Origin: Marinomonas rhizomae
Lineage (GTDB): Bacteria; Pseudomonadota; Gammaproteobacteria; Pseudomonadales; Marinomonadaceae
Assembly (NCBI RefSeq): GCF_003315485.1
Contig: NZ_QNSE01000003.1
Coordinates: 248,001-312,000 of the forward strand
Reading direction: 5' to 3'
DNA length: 64,000 nucleotides
Below the pieces are notes generated by a model, which did no database searches, was not told where the DNA came from, and was given only the letters and a program-made list of their open reading frames with translations. Every line of letters starts with the position of its first letter. Position 1 is the first letter of the stretch. A program made the translations under genes and the position numbers. Of this stretch, positions 18,538 through 58,911 are shown piece after piece.

Positions 18538-18613
18538 TGGCGTCCCATAGGGGGTTCGAACCCCTGTTACCGCCGTGAAAGGGCGGTGTCCTAGGCCTCT
18601 AGACGAATGGGAC
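18538..18613 (-). tRNA. tRNA-Glu (UUC)
   Basis: A 76-nt cloverleaf with encoded CCA. Anticodon loop CTTTCAC gives UUC. Of the five Glu copies here, this is the only one with an A6-U67 acceptor pair. The others have G6-C67, a compensatory double change that keeps the stem paired. Confidence 0.97.
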
Positions 18614-18641
18614 ATATAAAAACTTTCTCAATCAAAGAAAG

Positions 18642-18716
18642 TGGAGCGGGAAACGAGGCTCGAACTCGCGACCCCAACCTTGGCAAGGTTGTGCTCTACC
18701 ACTGAGCTATTCCCGC
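18642..18716 (-). tRNA. tRNA-Gly (GCC)
   Basis: A 75-nt cloverleaf with encoded CCA. Anticodon loop TTGCCAA gives GCC. Identical to the other two Gly genes of the array. Confidence 0.97.
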
Positions 18717-18775
18717 ATTTGCATTGCTATACACTACTTAGCAATTTTCACCTTCTATAATACAAAAGGTAAAAG

Positions 18776-18851
18776 TGGCGTCCCGTAGGGGGTTCGAACC
18801 CCTGTTACCGCCGTGAAAGGGCGGTGTCCTAGGCCTCTAGACGAACGGGAC
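18776..18851 (-). tRNA. tRNA-Glu (UUC)
   Basis: A 76-nt cloverleaf with encoded CCA and UUC anticodon, with a G6-C67 acceptor pair. The spacer to the next Glu gene lacks a Gly gene. Confidence 0.97.
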
Positions 18852-18908
18852 ATAAACTTTTTACGATACTAACAACACTATTAATGCACTTTTCATTTAA
18901 TTAAAAAG

Positions 18909-18984
18909 TGGCGTCCCGTAGGGGGTTCGAACCCCTGTTACCGCCGTGAAAGGGCGGTGTCCTAGGCCTCTAGACGAACGGGAC
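18909..18984 (-). tRNA. tRNA-Glu (UUC)
   Basis: A 76-nt cloverleaf with encoded CCA and UUC anticodon. It is part of the proximal copy of the 289-bp-period tandem duplication. Confidence 0.97.
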
Positions 18985-19039
18985 ACAATCTAGCTTTTAT
19001 AGAGCTATAACTAACTACTCACTTTCTACTTAAAGAAAG

Positions 19040-19114
19040 TGGAGCGGGAAACGAGGCTCGAACTCGCGACCCCAACCTTGGCAAGGTTGTGCTCTACCAC
19101 TGAGCTATTCCCGC
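19040..19114 (-). tRNA. tRNA-Gly (GCC)
   Basis: A 75-nt cloverleaf with GCC anticodon and encoded CCA. The 3' flank holds a small hairpin (ACTTTC / GAAAGT) repeated beside each Gly gene, possibly a processing signal. Confidence 0.97.
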
Positions 19115-19197
19115 ATTGCTAACACCCCTACTCTTTATTCGCATAAAGCAGTGGGCTGTCTTGTTTATCGTGCCAATGCGCACGATAAACTTAAAAG

Positions 19198-19273
19198 TGG
19201 CGTCCCGTAGGGGGTTCGAACCCCTGTTACCGCCGTGAAAGGGCGGTGTCCTAGACCTCTAGACGAACGGGAC
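19198..19273 (-). tRNA. tRNA-Glu (UUC), D-loop variant
   Basis: A 76-nt cloverleaf with UUC anticodon and encoded CCA. It differs from its duplicate by one base at 19255 (C to T at nucleotide 19 of the tRNA), in the D-loop, so the fold should survive. Confidence 0.96.
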
Positions 19274-19328
19274 ACAATCTAGCTTTTATAGAGCTACAAC
19301 TAACTACAAACTTTCTACTTAAAGAAAG

Positions 19329-19403
19329 TGGAGCGGGAAACGAGGCTCGAACTCGCGACCCCAACCTTGGCAAGGTTGTGCTCTACCACTGAGCTATTCC
19401 CGC
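19329..19403 (-). tRNA. tRNA-Gly (GCC)
   Basis: A 75-nt cloverleaf with GCC anticodon and encoded CCA, in the distal copy of the tandem duplication. Confidence 0.97.
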
Positions 19404-19462
19404 AAAAAAATCTCATTCATCACAGATTTTATGTAGACTATACAGCCAACCGTATGAAAGGA

Positions 19463-19538
19463 TGGCGTCCCGTAGGGGGTTCGAACCCCTGTTACCGCCG
19501 TGAAAGGGCGGTGTCCTAGGCCTCTAGACGAACGGGAC
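19463..19538 (-). tRNA. tRNA-Glu (UUC), first gene of the array
   Basis: A 76-nt cloverleaf with UUC anticodon and encoded CCA. As the promoter-proximal gene it lies about 34 nt downstream of a good -10 element with a GC-rich discriminator. Confidence 0.97.
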
Positions 19539-51467: not shown

Positions 51468-51855
51468 GATTATGGCATCCTTATAATCGGTTCATTGTAT
51501 ATAACATAATGATTTTAAAAAAATAAGCTAAAAAAATAGCCATGTAATCTATAAAAAATATAGATTTCTTCTGTAAGTGAGATGAACTTTTTTAGAGTTG
51601 TTTTTGATGTTCTTCCGTTAGAGTGAAAGGTCGCTTTGCCTAGAGGATTAAGCAGTGCCGCAAGCAAACGTTACGCTCACATCTATGATAACAATCTAAA
51701 TATAAAACCGATAATCAACATTACTGATAAGCTTATTACCTAGGGAATAAAGCTTTAAAATACAGTCGCAAAAAACGCCGGATGAAAATCGAGCGTTTTA
51801 TGCGGCTACAGATAAAATGATAAAACAATTAGCAGTAAGGTCCATTTGAACAAAA
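51468..51855. other. Intergenic region upstream of the ABC importer
   Basis: A 388-bp AT-rich stretch with no supported gene. It carries two small inverted repeats upstream of the binding-protein gene: AATCTATA/TATAGATT around five A (51546-51566) and GCTA/TAGC around six A. The first is a candidate operator. The far end holds the terminator of the Hsp70 operon. A 14-codon GTG-start frame at 51655 has a fair ribosome-binding site but is too short to call. Confidence 0.45.
51772..51799 (-). terminator. Terminator of the Hsp70 operon
   Basis: Minus-strand AAAACGC / GCGTTTT stem with a 14-nt loop and a T-run (GCGTTTTTTGC), about 57 nt after the stop of the second Hsp70 gene. Confidence 0.6.
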
Positions 51856-54567
51856 CTACAAACGCAAGCCGATGGGCAAGCTCTCTCCGACCAAAGCATT
51901 AAGCTCATCGCTGTTGATCTCAATTTGGCTTTCTAAACGTTCAAGCCACTGGATCGGACATTTATCTTTTTTGAGTTTATTTTCCACTTTTTTGCGCATA
52001 GCGCTAAGCTTATCAGATTCCTCGACACTAACTTGGCACATCAGTACCGCTGCTAACCCTGCCTGCTTACGCTTTTTCCAATCTTCTTTAAGAGCAACCT
52101 CCAAAATCGGAAAGAGTTTGTCCTCTACTATTCTTTGCTCTTGCTTGCCAAATAATAGATGACGGGAAGCAATACGCCCTATCGTCCACCAAGCTGTATC
52201 TGGCTCAGAAGTCTTTTGTAAACGCTTCAACAACCAATCAATCGTGGTGACTTTGTCTTCATTCGACAAACTCTCTAACGCGCCAACCAAACGAATTAAA
52301 TCATCGCTGGATTTAGTCGTCAGTGCTTTCATCTTGTCACGAGAACGCTGCCCTGTTGGCGAATAATATTGGCTAAACTGTTTAAACAAATGCGTTTGTT
52401 GCTCTACCGATAAGCCACCAGCAATACGGCGATACAAGGTCCAATATTGCCCCCAAACGGGTGCCGTATCGAACTGAGTGCCTGCTTTAGTGGTATTAAC
52501 CACTTGCTGAACTCGCGTCATATCATCCTTAGCACCAAAACCTGGGCGTAAACAATAGCCCATGAGCTGCAACCATTGTCGCTCATGCGGAGCGCTTTTG
52601 GTTCGAGCTGATTTTACACTTAACAATTTATCCACTAAACGTCGTGACGTGGCAAGATTCCAATCATCTCGATTGCCCAACAGCTGATCCAAATCCTGTT
52701 TGAGTGATTTCACCAAATCCGGATTTTGCTTTTGACCCGCACTGGAAAAACACTTAGCTAGATGCTCTTCAGCTTGCCCCATATTGGCATGCAGCAAATC
52801 ATTTTCATCAGCTTGCTCAGAGCCTTGTGAGGAACCCACATGGGTGGAGAATTCCAAACGCCATTGATCTTTCTGGTTGTGGGCGCATAGCTGGACTTGC
52901 AACACACCCACTTCGGTCATTTGAACTGATAAGGTGACTGCTGTCTCTTGCAAATCAATGGAGCCATCTAACTCTGTCATCAAGGTAGAAATGTAATGCA
53001 GTCCATTTTGATCACGAAGGTTGCCGACGATACAATCAATATGATCATCGGACCGAAACAAGGGGAACTGCACTTGCTGACCGAGAGTGACAAAGAACTC
53101 TTGCTCCAAGCGAATGGTCTCACCTTTCAGAGTGCCCTTTGGCAAGATGCCGACGAACTGATCTTCACCAAGCTTCAAGTACAAACTGTGCGCCACTCCA
53201 CTTTCAATTCGTGTACTTTCGCCCGCCAAAGCACTTAAATACATGGCTGCGCCTTTGGCAACGGCATCGTTAGGTTCGTCTGCAGAACAGACAAGGATAG
53301 GTTCAGAAGACCAAGTATTCAGTTGTTCTAATAACCGAGTTTTCAATACAGGACTATTAAATAAGCCGCCGTTAAACAACACTGCATCCGGCATAGGCGA
53401 GCCTGTTGCCGCTTCGATTACAGTTTTATGCTGCTGTAAAAACGCCGCCAAATGACGTGTAAAAGCAGGGTCAGATTCGTAAGGCAAACCCAAAGTGTGC
53501 ATGGCGTAATCGCTCTTTTGTACCTTGTCATTGCCATTCACCAAAGGAAAAAAGCCATTGTGAATTTGTTCTAACAAGGCGTCTCTGGAGACATCAAACT
53601 TTTGCGAGCCACCAATTAAACGACTACCACCACCAAGCACCGTAATACTTAGCGAATCTGGTGCACCATCTCCCAACAAGGTCTCTTTCGCCTGACGAGT
53701 TTGCTGAACCAAGGCCGCTAAGCGCGTGGCTGATAAAGCAGAAATTTGTTTTGGATCTAACTGAAACGCCAAGGCTTGATCTAGGTTATCGCCACCCAGT
53801 AATAAATGTTCGCCTACGGCAACACGCTTCAGAGATACGCTGCTATTGTTTGAAGACGCAGACTTGATCGCCACCAAACTAAAATCACTGGTACCACCGC
53901 CGATATCGACAACCAGAAGCATTTTTTTGTCCGCTAACGCAGCAAGTTTTCCGTCATCACTGATGTAGTGATAACAGGCCGCCTGCGGCTCTTCAAGCAG
54001 ATATAAATCCTGCAAACCTGCCAACTTCGCCGCTTCTAATGTCAAAGCTCGCGCCTCTTCATCAAAAGAGGCAGGCAAGGTTAACGCGATGGATTGAGAC
54101 TCTAGCGGTGCCTCTGCAAAGCGATGATTCCAGCTTTGCTTAATGTGTAATAACAGAACCTTACTCGCCTCAAGAGGACTTAGTTTTTTCGGGAACTCAC
54201 TCGCCCAAGGCAAAATAGCGGAGCGTCTATCAACCTGACGATGGCTCAACCAGCTTTTCGCACTTTGCACCAACTGCCCGGCTCTTCGCTGACCCAGAGT
54301 CAACGCTCCCGCACCAACGATGCGCTCTTTATCATGATGACGCCAAGGCAAAACTGGATCAATCTTTCCAATTTCATCTGACGCCAACACATAAATAGCA
54401 CTCGGCAAATGTGTAAGCTCTTGAACCGAACCATCCGCCATCACTTGAGGAATAGGCAACAATTCTGGTTCAGCTTGCCCATAAGCAGGCACATAAGAGA
54501 CGACACAATTAGTTGTCCCTAAATCGATACCTACGCGATAAGAGGAACGAGAAGCGGTTTGCGCCAT
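51856..54567 (-). CDS. Long Hsp70-like ATPase with helical C-terminal domain
   Basis: A 903-residue Hsp70-family protein. The actin-fold ATPase domain starts YRVGIDLGTTNCVVSY (phosphate-1) and contains VVDIGGGTSDFSLVAI (phosphate-2) near residue 220 and VLFNGGLFNSPVLK (adenosine). After about 480 there is a short beta region in place of the DnaK substrate domain, and no DVLLLD-type interdomain linker. Residues 600-903 are a long helical domain, which I believe corresponds to DUF3731. It starts 3 nt after the preceding Hsp70 gene ends. It is not DnaK, HscA or HscC, and its client is unknown. No J-protein or GrpE gene is nearby. Confidence 0.85.
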   Translation of the reverse strand: MAQTASRSSYRVGIDLGTTNCVVSYVPAYGQAEPELLPIPQVMADGSVQELTHLPSAIYVLASDEIGKIDPVLPWRHHDKERIVGAGALTLGQRRAGQLVQSAKSWLSHRQVDRRSAILPWASEFPKKLSPLEASKVLLLHIKQSWNHRFAEAPLESQSIALTLPASFDEEARALTLEAAKLAGLQDLYLLEEPQAACYHYISDDGKLAALADKKMLLVVDIGGGTSDFSLVAIKSASSNNSSVSLKRVAVGEHLLLGGDNLDQALAFQLDPKQISALSATRLAALVQQTRQAKETLLGDGAPDSLSITVLGGGSRLIGGSQKFDVSRDALLEQIHNGFFPLVNGNDKVQKSDYAMHTLGLPYESDPAFTRHLAAFLQQHKTVIEAATGSPMPDAVLFNGGLFNSPVLKTRLLEQLNTWSSEPILVCSADEPNDAVAKGAAMYLSALAGESTRIESGVAHSLYLKLGEDQFVGILPKGTLKGETIRLEQEFFVTLGQQVQFPLFRSDDHIDCIVGNLRDQNGLHYISTLMTELDGSIDLQETAVTLSVQMTEVGVLQVQLCAHNQKDQWRLEFSTHVGSSQGSEQADENDLLHANMGQAEEHLAKCFSSAGQKQNPDLVKSLKQDLDQLLGNRDDWNLATSRRLVDKLLSVKSARTKSAPHERQWLQLMGYCLRPGFGAKDDMTRVQQVVNTTKAGTQFDTAPVWGQYWTLYRRIAGGLSVEQQTHLFKQFSQYYSPTGQRSRDKMKALTTKSSDDLIRLVGALESLSNEDKVTTIDWLLKRLQKTSEPDTAWWTIGRIASRHLLFGKQEQRIVEDKLFPILEVALKEDWKKRKQAGLAAVLMCQVSVEESDKLSAMRKKVENKLKKDKCPIQWLERLESQIEINSDELNALVGESLPIGLRL

Positions 54568-54570
54568 GGT

Positions 54571-56349
54571 CTAAGCCTCCCTAACTTGAAACTCAATTGT
54601 CCAACTTAGGTCAGATTGAGTATCGTGCGCTTGCAGCAGCAGCAATCCCAATTCAGTAACACGGGCAGTCAGATAAACTCGCACCATGTCGCCAGCTTGG
54701 TAATGACCTGCGTCTAATCGTACCGACAAAGGGTTCAATTCACTTAGCTGGGGAACAGAAAACGACGCAATGACCTTACCTACCGAATCCACTTCGTTGT
54801 TTTTTGATTGGAAAAAACGGAAGGTCACACTTTCACCAACCACAAGAGAAAATTCATTCGGCAGCATTTGCTCTTCTGAACCTTCCTCCAAACCAAATGG
54901 CGCTACACAAATGGCATCAACAGGAGGAGCCATTCCAGGAATCGCCGGCATTGGACTAGCCACACCAATGTAATAGTTCGCCGCTAGACCACTTTTTACT
55001 TTGACACCGCCCTCAGCTTGCACTTGGGCATAGTAAGTCGCACCTTTAGCAACCGCATAATCCAAATGAGACGGCGTTAACAGAGTTAATGCGCAGCTAT
55101 CCATCGATTCGGCCAGCATGGAAGCCAAACGAGTTTCTAGGGTATTGCGAATGACAGTGGCATTGAACACACCTCCGTTTAACAACACTTTGCTTGGTTT
55201 CACATCGTGCTGAGCTAAGAATTCACTGATATGGCGAGTGATCGCTGGATCACCTTCGTAATCCAAGTTAATCGCACTGAAACCACTACGAACTGTTTTT
55301 TGAGCTTGCTCACCCAACTGTGCTTGTGGAAAAAAACCATCAATTAAAAGCCGTTGAACATCGTTTTGTGTCAGCGTTGCCTTGATACTGTTGTTAAACA
55401 AACTACGACCACGACTAGGCACAACAACGCTCACGTCATCTAAATCCGCGTTGGTTAGCAAACGCTCTTTTGCTTCTCGGCAAGCTTGGGTCAAACCGCT
55501 GATTTGCCAAGGTTCAAGATTAGTGCCGCTTTGCGCTAGCTGAGCCGCCAAATGGTAAGTCAGCGTCAAATCCATATTGTCGCCACCAAGAAGAATATGA
55601 CGACCCACAGCGACCCGCTCTAGACCAAGCACTCCATCTTGCTCTACCGCTTGGATTAACGATAAATCTGTTGTACCGCCACCCACGTCGACAACCAAAA
55701 TATGCTCATTGACATCTAGGCTTTCAGACCAGCTTTGCTGATCACTTAACCAAGCATAAAAGGCCGCTAACGGCTCCTCAATCAAACGAGCACGCAAACC
55801 GACTTTTTCCGCGGCTTGTTCAGTAATAGCACGAGCAGCAGGATCAAATGATGCAGGCACAGTAATAACAAGGGTTTGCTCGGCAATTGGAGCAGCAGGA
55901 AATTGATGGTCCCATGCACTGACCAAATGCGCCAATAAGGTTTCTGTCACCTGTGCTGGAGACACTTTTTCTACTTCTTCAAGCGCATCCACAGGCAATA
56001 CCGCTTCATCAGCACTAACACGAGAATGACACAACCAGCTTTTGGCACTTTGCACCAATCGACCAGAAGACTTCGCACCCAACTCACGCGCTAGTTGTCC
56101 GACTACCGAAGGGGCCCTGCCCCAAGGAAGCTGTAAATCGCTCTCTAAAAATTCACTTTGGTGAGGAAAATACACAAATGAAGGAAGTAAAGGACGAGCA
56201 TCCACTTGACCTGCCGCGATAAACTGCGGAATCGCCAATTGCTGAATACGACCTACTTGATCTGATTCGGTTGCCGTTTGGCTAGAAGGCGAATAATAGA
56301 CAGCCGAATGCGTGGTACCTAGATCGATACCAATGAAATATTGACTCAT
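54571..56349 (-). CDS. Short Hsp70-like ATPase
   Basis: A 592-residue Hsp70-family protein. ATPase motifs are FIGIDLGTTHSAVYYS, ILVVDVGGGTTDLSLIQA and VLLNGGVFNATVIRNTL. The C-terminal 110 residues are a small beta domain (VTFRFFQSKNN..VRVYLTARVTELG), shorter than DnaK's substrate domain and without a helical lid. It is clearly related to the following 903-residue protein through the ATPase domain and beta region, so the pair arose by duplication and one copy gained the long tail. It follows the DUF2760 gene by 3 nt. Confidence 0.85.
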   Translation of the reverse strand: MSQYFIGIDLGTTHSAVYYSPSSQTATESDQVGRIQQLAIPQFIAAGQVDARPLLPSFVYFPHQSEFLESDLQLPWGRAPSVVGQLARELGAKSSGRLVQSAKSWLCHSRVSADEAVLPVDALEEVEKVSPAQVTETLLAHLVSAWDHQFPAAPIAEQTLVITVPASFDPAARAITEQAAEKVGLRARLIEEPLAAFYAWLSDQQSWSESLDVNEHILVVDVGGGTTDLSLIQAVEQDGVLGLERVAVGRHILLGGDNMDLTLTYHLAAQLAQSGTNLEPWQISGLTQACREAKERLLTNADLDDVSVVVPSRGRSLFNNSIKATLTQNDVQRLLIDGFFPQAQLGEQAQKTVRSGFSAINLDYEGDPAITRHISEFLAQHDVKPSKVLLNGGVFNATVIRNTLETRLASMLAESMDSCALTLLTPSHLDYAVAKGATYYAQVQAEGGVKVKSGLAANYYIGVASPMPAIPGMAPPVDAICVAPFGLEEGSEEQMLPNEFSLVVGESVTFRFFQSKNNEVDSVGKVIASFSVPQLSELNPLSVRLDAGHYQAGDMVRVYLTARVTELGLLLLQAHDTQSDLSWTIEFQVREA

Positions 56350-56352
56350 GAG

Positions 56353-56961
56353 TTATACCTCGATTTCAGCTGGCGCTAGAATATTTAGGCTTTCTGTATT
56401 GGTTACTTTTGGCAGACGAGTTTCCGTCACTTTCCAACCAGGATGAATCAGCGTGCCAGAATATGGGCCATCACCTTCCACTCGACCTTCAAGCTTAATC
56501 TGCTTGGAATCGTAACCAGATGGTACTTCTACACGGCTATTTTCCGCGGCGCTGTTCACAGCATCAAGAGACACGACATCGATGGTAAAATGTTGCTTCA
56601 ATACTTTAGAACAACCTGCGTGAATTTGACGAGATGCCGCCCCCACATCCGCATCGCTGTAATCATCAATGCTTTCTTGGATGAAATCGATAAAGCGCGC
56701 TTCTTGTTGCAGCAATTGTAGTAACTGGTGCGCTCCGTCAGCGTTGACCGTATCCAAAACAGGTGCAGCGACTTCGATTTCACGAATCACTTCCACTTCT
56801 TCTGTTATGACTTTAGGCTCGACTTCGAAGGCAAATTGCTCGCCTTGATCAACCGTTTGACAGCGAGCGGCATAGTCGCCGCTCCCCATGTATTTAAAGA
56901 ACTGACCAAAAGCGCCAAAAAAGCGCGGTATAAATGAAACTGGTTTAATTTTATTCGTCAT
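56353..56961 (-). CDS. DUF2760-family protein
   Basis: A 202-residue protein of the DUF2760 family, recognised by its position before two Hsp70-like genes and by RFFGAFGQFFKYMGSGDYAAR, LQLLQQEARFIDFIQESIDDYSDADVGAA, and SGTLIHPGWKVTETRLP. There is no signal peptide or true membrane helix. The middle is helical and the C-terminal 60 residues are beta-rich. It probably works with the two ATPases, since the three are spaced by 3 nt each. Molecular function is not established. Confidence 0.8.
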   Translation of the reverse strand: MTNKIKPVSFIPRFFGAFGQFFKYMGSGDYAARCQTVDQGEQFAFEVEPKVITEEVEVIREIEVAAPVLDTVNADGAHQLLQLLQQEARFIDFIQESIDDYSDADVGAASRQIHAGCSKVLKQHFTIDVVSLDAVNSAAENSRVEVPSGYDSKQIKLEGRVEGDGPYSGTLIHPGWKVTETRLPKVTNTESLNILAPAEIEV

Positions 56962-56982
56962 AATCTACCCGTTTTGCGCTGT

Positions 56983-58911
56983 TTACCCATTTTGCATCTC
57001 TTCAAGCTCTAACCAACGCTCCATGGTTGTTTCAAGCTCTTCTTCTTTATGCGCTAATTTCGCCAAAGTTTTCTGAACCTTATCCGCATCATCGGTATAA
57101 AATTCTGGCGCGCTAGTGGTGACATGCAACGCGGCGATCTCTTCTTCCAACTTCGCAATGGTCGCAGGCATATTGTCAAATTCGCGCTGCATTTTATAGC
57201 TTAGCTTCGCTTTTGGTTTCGCCTGGATAGAGGTTTTTTTATCCTCTTCGACTTTTTTTGCGTTTGTCTTGGCTTTTTCTTTTTTACTTGGTGTGTCGTC
57301 AGTTTGCGATGTGGATTCTGTTGGGAATTTACCACCTTGACGAATCCAATCTTGATATCCGCCAACGTATTCTTTCACTCGGCCTTCGCCTTCAAAAGCA
57401 ATCACGCTGGTTACCACGTTATCTAGAAAGGCACGGTCATGGCTTACCAATAACAAGGTGCCATCGTAGCTCATTAGAAGCTCTTCAAGCAGTTCTAATG
57501 TTTCCACATCAAGGTCGTTGGTTGGCTCATCCATGATTAACAGATTGGCTGGGCGAGTAAATAACTTCGCTAGCAATACTCGATTTCGCTCACCGCCAGA
57601 CAAGGCTTTTACTGGAGTACGGGCACGCTCAGGTGGGAAAAGGAAATCACCAAGATAGCCAATAACATGTTTGTTCTGACCATTGATTTCGATAACGTCT
57701 TTACCTTCACCAACGTTTTCCGCAACCGTTTGTTCTGGATCAAGTTGCTCACGCAGCTGATCGAAATACGCTACGTTAAGTTTCGTACCTTGACGCACCA
57801 AACCCGTTTCTGGCTCAAGATCCCCTAATAGAATTTTAAGGAAGGTACTTTTACCGCAACCATTTGGTCCAATTAGACCGATTCGGTCTCCGCGATTTAC
57901 CACGAAGTCCATTGGTTGCAAAATTACTTTATCCTCAAATGAATGACCTACTTGAGTAAATTCTGCGACCAACTTACCAGACTTATCTTTGGTCTCAATC
58001 GCCATTTTGGCATTGCCTTGGCGATTAATGCGTTCAGAGCGCTCTTCACGTAAGGCTTTCAAAGCACGAACTCGACCTTCATTACGGGTACGACGTGCTT
58101 TAATACCTTGGCGAATCCACACTTCTTCTTCTGCAAGGCGCTTATCGAACAAAGCGTTTGCACGCTCTTCTTCTTCCAGCATCTTCTCTTTAAAAGCAAG
58201 AAAAGCGGTGATGTTGCCGCTGAAGGAAATTAGATTACCGCGATCAAGTTCGATGATACGGTTAGCCAATTTTTCTAGGAAACGACGGTCATGGGTAATA
58301 AATAAGATCAAACCGCGGAATTGCTGAAGCTGTTGCTCCATCCATTCGATTGTTGGCACATCCAAATGGTTAGTTGGCTCGTCTAGTAGCAAGACATCTG
58401 GGTTAGAAATCAGCGCCTGCGCCAAAATAACGCGACGACGCCAACCACCAGATAATTCAGACATCAATTTGTCAGCCGGCAAAGCCAAACGCTGAATCAT
58501 GTGATTCACACGCTGCTCTAGATCCCAGCCTTGAATTCGATCTAATTCAGTCTGAATATCACTTAATTCATTGGTGTGATCATTCTCGAAATCTTCTAAT
58601 AACTTAAAGTAACGAGTCATTAACGAGTGCGCCTCACCGGCGCCCTCACTGACCACTTCACGAACGGTTTTTTCATTCGCATCAGGCAATTCTTGTGGAA
58701 GCTGACCAATAGTCATGCCTCCTTCTAAGCGAACAACGCCTTCATCGGCAACTTGCTCGCCTAAAATGACTTTTAACAGTGTCGACTTACCCGCACCATT
58801 ACGACCGATAATTGCAACACGCTCTCCAGCTTCGGCTGAAAAACTAATTTTTGACAGCAGTGGATTATGCCCAAAAGCAACACTGATCTGTTCTAACGAC
58901 AATAGACTCAT
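56983..58911 (-). CDS. uup: ABC-F ATPase Uup
   Basis: A 642-residue soluble protein with two ABC domains: Walker A GRNGAGKST and GPNGCGKST, signatures LSGGWRRRV and LSGGERNRV, and Walker B LLLDEPTNHLD and LIMDEPTNDLD. The connecting region is helical and charged. The C-terminal coiled-coil domain, a Uup feature that binds branched DNA, is preceded by a lysine-rich linker and contains KLSYKMQREFDNMPATIAKLEEEIAALH. Uup is linked to ribosome function and to suppression of transposon excision. It leads the DUF2760/Hsp70 genes by 21 nt on the same strand, an arrangement that suggests co-expression. Confidence 0.93.
   Translation of the reverse strand: MSLLSLEQISVAFGHNPLLSKISFSAEAGERVAIIGRNGAGKSTLLKVILGEQVADEGVVRLEGGMTIGQLPQELPDANEKTVREVVSEGAGEAHSLMTRYFKLLEDFENDHTNELSDIQTELDRIQGWDLEQRVNHMIQRLALPADKLMSELSGGWRRRVILAQALISNPDVLLLDEPTNHLDVPTIEWMEQQLQQFRGLILFITHDRRFLEKLANRIIELDRGNLISFSGNITAFLAFKEKMLEEEERANALFDKRLAEEEVWIRQGIKARRTRNEGRVRALKALREERSERINRQGNAKMAIETKDKSGKLVAEFTQVGHSFEDKVILQPMDFVVNRGDRIGLIGPNGCGKSTFLKILLGDLEPETGLVRQGTKLNVAYFDQLREQLDPEQTVAENVGEGKDVIEINGQNKHVIGYLGDFLFPPERARTPVKALSGGERNRVLLAKLFTRPANLLIMDEPTNDLDVETLELLEELLMSYDGTLLLVSHDRAFLDNVVTSVIAFEGEGRVKEYVGGYQDWIRQGGKFPTESTSQTDDTPSKKEKAKTNAKKVEEDKKTSIQAKPKAKLSYKMQREFDNMPATIAKLEEEIAALHVTTSAPEFYTDDADKVQKTLAKLAHKEEELETTMERWLELEEMQNG

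Follow-up and report, generated by a model that had tools for sequence, protein, structure and literature searches.

The window, that is, the whole 64-kb stretch of DNA that was analysed, carries a cassette coding for a DUF2760 protein and two divergent Hsp70-like proteins, HspA (592 aa) and HspB (903 aa, with a C-terminal DUF3731 domain), and judging from gene content and gene order it is nearly certain that these three genes constitute one conserved unit. Through the DUF2760 protein, the two Hsp70s are probably tethered to the cell membrane on its inner face. A more specific mechanism is tentatively proposed, with slightly less than even confidence, in which DUF2760 recruits the pair to the inner membrane and the system works in a manner similar to HscC with its partners DjlB/DjlC. 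The uup gene located upstream of the cassette has not been judged part of the module.

Organization of the locus

The uup gene and the cassette correspond to four ORFs on the minus strand, separated by gaps of 21 nt (uup/DUF2760), 3 nt (DUF2760/HspA) and 3 nt (HspA/HspB), and both ORFs and gaps were recovered as given in a preliminary description of this DNA. The Pfam assignments were, in gene order, ABC-F/Uup-type, DUF2760, HSP70, and HSP70 plus DUF3731. The features of the locus are the following:

56983..58911, minus strand: Uup-type ABC-F ATPase, 642 aa (NF050005, 873.5 bits over the full length, slightly below the cut-off of 900)
56353..56961, minus strand: DUF2760 protein, 202 aa (Pfam PF10816, E 2.7e-46; AF2 model with pLDDT 83)
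Within 56353..56961, minus strand: layout of the DUF2760 protein, with hydrophobic/amphipathic helices at residues 10-26 and 28-38, a linker, and a conserved domain predicted to be cytosolic at residues ~75-201
56884..56934, minus strand: amphipathic helix of DUF2760, residues 10-26 (helix in the AF2 model), putatively equivalent to the transmembrane anchor found in other members
54571..56349, minus strand: HspA, Hsp70-like ATPase of 592 aa with NBD and predicted beta-type substrate domain, without lid (PF00012, E 5e-21; hhalign to HspB; catalytic residues)
51856..54567, minus strand: HspB, Hsp70-like ATPase of 903 aa with C-terminal DUF3731 (PF00012; PF12531, E 2.7e-73; AF2 pLDDT 86)
52837..53205, minus strand: SBD-beta-like domain of HspB, residues ~455-577 (structural alignment with DnaK/BiP)
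51859..52596, minus strand: all-helical DUF3731 domain of HspB, residues 658-903, beyond the Hsp70 lid position (PF12531; model helices)
51767..51804, minus strand: terminator-like hairpin with T-run, 3' of HspB (RNA fold -17 kcal/mol, z -3.0)

The last of these features agrees with the closing terminator claimed previously; the hairpin (51804-51767) was absent from the list produced by an automatic terminator scan. As also noted before, neither J-domain nor GrpE genes were found in the 64-kb window, and the genome has its own copies of the DnaK and GrpE genes elsewhere. HscA and HscB are apparently absent from this genome (no HSCB_C match), in which the Hsp70-type proteins are DnaK, HspA, HspB, a YegD-like protein of 454 aa and an MreB-sized protein. 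At positions 18538-19538 of the window, on the minus strand, there is a tandem array of eight tRNA genes, five for tRNA-Glu(ttc) and three for tRNA-Gly(gcc).

Conservation of the three-gene module

Of 274 Gammaproteobacteria genomes searched, 11 contained DUF3731, and DUF2760 was found in 10, every one of them among those 11. The hypergeometric probability of this overlap is 2e-17, uncorrected for relatedness, and the genomes belong to 9 families, so that the three-gene arrangement lies far beyond chance. In the eleventh DUF3731 genome, where no DUF2760 was seen, HspA is located at a contig end (locus L068). DUF2760 was present in 46 of the 48 genomes of the window's genus, and was found neither in 14 control genomes, E. 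coli included, nor in 50,697 phage records.

Gene order has been analysed in a named survey of 80 DUF2760 loci from Proteobacteria, Verrucomicrobia, Myxococcota, Desulfuromonadales/Desulfobacterales, Thermoanaerobaculia and one Parachlamydiales MAG, several of the genomes being draft MAGs. HspA was encoded directly after DUF2760 and on the same strand in 78 of these loci (four of them cut by a contig end), and the survey bore out the earlier claim that DUF2760 and two divergent Hsp70s recur as a unit. One of the two remaining loci had only 205 bases left; the other (L148), from a Victivallales MAG, showed no HspA in the 2.8 kb downstream of DUF2760 and is the sole clear exception to this order. 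HspB was found within the locus in 56 of the 80 cases, as the third gene with few exceptions. Among 12 genomes from lineages with a non-adjacent HspB, the gene was located elsewhere in seven and was not found in five, which are drafts; the presence of HspB elsewhere in those seven genomes indicates that the link between the three proteins is not one of shared position alone.

No convincing common neighbour gene was detected across the phyla, the largest neighbour cluster resembling spurious high-GC reading frames. J-domain genes are not a systematic neighbour: the cassette had one nearby in just 4 loci, three from the window's genus and one from Competibacter. In the three former (L074, L075 and L077) the gene lies a few kb away and codes for a J-domain protein of ~440 aa. 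Three genomes with DUF2760 of family f202 (G335, G341 and G344) and two other sampled genomes encode a second GrpE, which is divergent (about 60-67 bits) and in the cases compared was on a contig other than that of the cassette. In the conjugative Bradyrhizobium plasmid pCB82_1, groES-groEL come after the cassette.

The uup gene adjoins DUF2760 in 30/30 loci of the window's genus, the two genes being spaced by -8 to 32 nt, and the named-locus survey contained no locus outside this genus with uup next to DUF2760. For this reason uup is regarded, on genomic grounds, as a genus-specific neighbour and not as a module component, and its position directly upstream with such gaps in every genus locus tested makes co-transcription with the cassette likely in this genus. 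The preliminary description had inferred from the leading position of uup a link to the quality control of ribosomes or nucleic acids, in which the module would act together with Uup. The constant position of uup within the genus and its likely co-transcription would fit this role, but adjacency is restricted to that genus, and the control genomes without DUF2760 include that of E. coli, where uup is a well-known gene. The proposal has been left unsupported, and such a role is considered highly improbable.

A function in phage defence is regarded as extremely unlikely. Both Hsp70s weakly match the PADLOC candidate model PDC-M61B, and in the Thiodictyon syntrophicum plasmid pTs485 a DUF2760-HspA pair lacking HspB lies among annotated anti-phage genes (L184). 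However, the PDC-M61 match (27-30 bits) covers about 90-120 residues of the ATPase part only and is not full-length, nearly all genomes of the window's genus (46/48) have the cassette, and no defence genes recurred beside it in the loci surveyed.

The Hsp70-like proteins HspA and HspB

The models were built from 46-78 sequences. HspB is a paralogue of HspA over the full length of the latter (hhalign E 1e-176, 34% identity), and the root of their tree had a low support of 0.42. Mirror-tree correlations were 0.93 for HspA/HspB and 0.83 for DUF2760/HspA; these values were obtained without a control gene and do not count as evidence. The residues matching D8, T11, K70, P143, E171, D194 and T199 of DnaK were identical in 46/46 HspA and 46/46 HspB sequences, and the earlier claim that the ATP-binding motifs are kept is borne out by all the catalytic residues checked. 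With PF00012 matches above the cut-off and these residues invariant, HspA and HspB are assigned by sequence to the Hsp70 superfamily. Both fall well short of the curated DnaK models, at 56-68 bits versus cut-offs of 648 and 823. An HscA (Fe-S) role has been considered and rejected: the scores were 87-93 bits versus cut-offs of 620-709, and the genome contains no HSCB_C match.

The AlphaFold2 model of HspB (mean pLDDT 86) aligned through residues 8-577 with the NBD and SBD-beta of DnaK/BiP, over 458-472 residues at about 4 A and with Z values of 33-38. The model therefore places an SBD-beta after the NBD in HspB, at residues ~455-577, and a corresponding domain is predicted in HspA through its homology to HspB. 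On this point the preliminary description, which had denied both proteins a full substrate domain, needs to be corrected. It was right about the alpha-helical lid, which is absent: HspA stops after the beta-domain, and in HspB the beta-domain is followed, where a lid would be expected, by DUF3731, which is all-helical in the model, comprises about 250 aa and had no sequence match in the PDB.

The lack of a DnaK-like linker, also claimed earlier, was confirmed, as the residues corresponding to D388, L390, L391 and D393 are unconserved in HspA and HspB and the segment found there is of the R-I-x-G-G type. In DnaK this linker connects ATP hydrolysis with substrate binding, so the two proteins may not go through a chaperone-type cycle. 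HspA and HspB could instead be regulatory or scaffold ATPases at the membrane, comparable to the actin-type ATPases of signalling and assembly. Apart from the loss of the linker in all members, this interpretation draws on substrate loops that appear shortened in the sequence alignment and on a weak similarity to the MreB family. It has to be reconciled, however, with the DnaK-like SBD-beta that follows the NBD in the HspB model and with the invariance of the proline-switch residue P143, and a non-chaperone function of this kind is considered fairly unlikely.

Changes were also found at R167 and N170, the J-protein contact residues of DnaK. The second is replaced by E in all HspA and HspB sequences, and the first is lost in HspA and retained in 32/46 HspB.

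The DUF2760 protein

In its AF2 model (pLDDT 83), DUF2760 begins with a helical hairpin, which a flexible linker joins to a second such hairpin and a small beta part. Neither PDB structures (E 0.27 or higher, VIA Z 4.5 or lower) nor viral models yielded a fold match, which proves neither that the fold is new nor that a relative is lacking. The invariant residues include R89, D92, F93, R111, H114, E140, G159, G169, H173, G175, W176 and P184. L183 and P184 are both invariant in an alignment of 24 sequences, and in one of 78 sequences P184 remains invariant and L183 nearly so. The C-terminal tail is highly conserved and reads (I/L)APAEVEL, or a sequence near it, in most members.

Pfam assigned DUF2760 alone to this protein and its sequence has no HPD motif, so it is not a J-domain protein. 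Its replacing the usual co-chaperone is plausible, and a membrane recruiter is more likely than a copy of GrpE. A role as a GrpE-like nucleotide exchange factor of HspA/HspB has been tested. Like GrpE, DUF2760 has its helices first and a small beta part after them, and the profile alignment was colinear but non-significant, with an hhalign probability of 0.6% (P 0.1); in addition, no GrpE appeared among the Foldseek matches listed for DUF2760. This role was left unsupported and is thought to be very unlikely.

The conserved L183-P184 and tail recall the yeast Zuo1-Ssz1-Ssb system, in which Ssz1, lidless and with an altered linker, binds through its SBD-beta the Leu-Pro motif of Zuo1 as a built-in pseudo-substrate (PMC7083937). 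By analogy, L183-P184 and the tail (IAPAEVEL) could occupy the substrate site of HspA as a pseudo-substrate, so that the lidless HspA would be held stably and clients would go to HspB, where DUF3731 would stand for the lid. The module would then be a membrane-tethered bacterial Hsp70 triad without J-protein or GrpE, and DUF2760 a new class of co-chaperone. In both systems one partner is combined with two Hsp70s, and HspA shares with Ssz1 the missing lid and the altered linker. Nevertheless, DUF2760 has neither a J-domain nor an HPD motif, HspA retains all the catalytic residues while Ssz1 does not hydrolyse ATP, and the Leu-Pro resemblance is short and possibly a coincidence. Such a pseudo-substrate arrangement, and with it the triad as described, is regarded as unlikely.

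Predicted attachment of DUF2760 to the membrane

Transmembrane helices were predicted in 101 DUF2760 sequences by a simple hydropathy rule, and topology by the positive-inside rule. One or two N-terminal transmembrane helices were predicted in 50 of the 101 members, 45 of which would have the conserved domain in the cytosol to judge from their charges. A hydrophobic element such as FFSRLSIAFGALFKSLG is found in most of the 51 members without such a helix, those of the window's genus included. The DUF2760 protein of the window has no predicted transmembrane helix and presents a strongly amphipathic N-terminal helix instead, so that membrane contact in this genus would rest on that helix. The hydrophobic moment of its 18-residue segment FIPRFFGAFGQFFKYMGS is 0.54, a value matched by 0.1% of shuffles.

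In six gammaproteobacterial loci of the transmembrane type (L061, L133, L151, L156, L159 and L058) a small protein of ~127 aa is encoded directly upstream of DUF2760. Its N-terminus is signal-peptide-like or lipobox/lipoprotein-like, and it gave no Pfam match. In L058 this protein and DUF2760 share one open frame, although the frame also contains an internal start with a ribosome-binding-like sequence before it.

The probable cassette in Vibrio cholerae and the literature

DUF2760, DUF3731 and their Pfam accessions were named in no paper of the literature searched, which agrees with the earlier view of a poorly understood system. The genes VC1373-VC1375 of V. cholerae, annotated in two papers as DnaK-related proteins and located beside the diguanylate cyclase gene cdgM/VC1376, are very probably the orthologous cassette, an assignment based on gene names and neighbours rather than on the V. 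cholerae sequence. In the Vibrio locus L138 the cassette likewise adjoins a CHASE-GGDEF gene, and the related Vibrio loci, unlike the window, have no uup neighbour. HapR was shown in vivo and in vitro to activate the VC1375 promoter (PMC10328515), VC1374 was picked up in a screen for biofilm-repressed genes (PMC9201469), and VC1374 was also among the differing transcripts of a polymyxin B study (PMC5636140). These data are hints about expression only.

Proposed mechanism

The sequences give the module, with its gene order and the joint occurrence of its members, as well as the catalytic residues and the predicted topology. Confidence in the mechanism built on them is slightly less than even, and we infer the physical interaction, the membrane binding in the window's genus, the handling of clients and the way in which HspA and HspB would share the work. 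DUF2760 would be a dedicated partner, its N-terminus fixed to the inner membrane or resting on it and its conserved domain in the cytosol. It would recruit HspA, which has no lid but keeps its ATPase site intact and has a predicted beta-type substrate domain; HspB, the paralogue with the helical DUF3731 after its substrate domain, would act together with HspA. Driven by ATP cycles, the two proteins would hold clients on the cytosolic side of the membrane or remodel them there. In the window's genus, uup has acquired a position directly upstream, where it is probably co-transcribed without being a component.

Hsp70 chaperones are usually described as requiring a J-protein and often an exchange factor, and the partner in this module is neither. 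If the proposal is true, DUF2760 would represent a new class of co-chaperone and the module a chaperone route for membrane or envelope clients. The module spans several phyla, Vibrio and Burkholderia included, and occurs in genetically testable organisms.

Comparison with known systems

The prokaryotic Hsp70s named in a review are DnaK, HscA and HscC (PMC8215388). The DnaK-DnaJ-GrpE system has in common with the module the ATPase fold, the catalytic residues and the architecture with an SBD-beta, but the module lacks the DnaK linker, a typical lid and a nearby gene for a J-protein or GrpE. Hsp110/Sse1 is likewise an Hsp70 with a large C-terminal helical extension that acts beside another Hsp70, and Sse1 was among the structural matches of HspB, whose extension differs in being DUF3731, of about 250 aa and without sequence match to a solved structure. 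The ribosome-associated complex (RAC) Zuo1-Ssz1 with Ssb likewise combines a single partner with two Hsp70s, of which one lacks the lid and has a changed linker; in contrast, the module contains no J-domain, gave no sign of ribosome binding, and its HspA keeps the catalytic residues.

The nearest functional parallel, by analogy, appears to be HscC of E. coli with the tail-anchored J-proteins DjlB/DjlC, a system for which a review proposes membrane proteins as targets and the plasma membrane as the site of action (PMC8215388). The module differs in that DUF2760 is no J-protein and in having two Hsp70 paralogues, the lidless HspA and HspB with its DUF3731; the parallel would lie in a divergent Hsp70 combined with a dedicated partner at the membrane, an attachment predicted for DUF2760 from transmembrane helices in 50 of 101 members and from an amphipathic helix in the window's genus.
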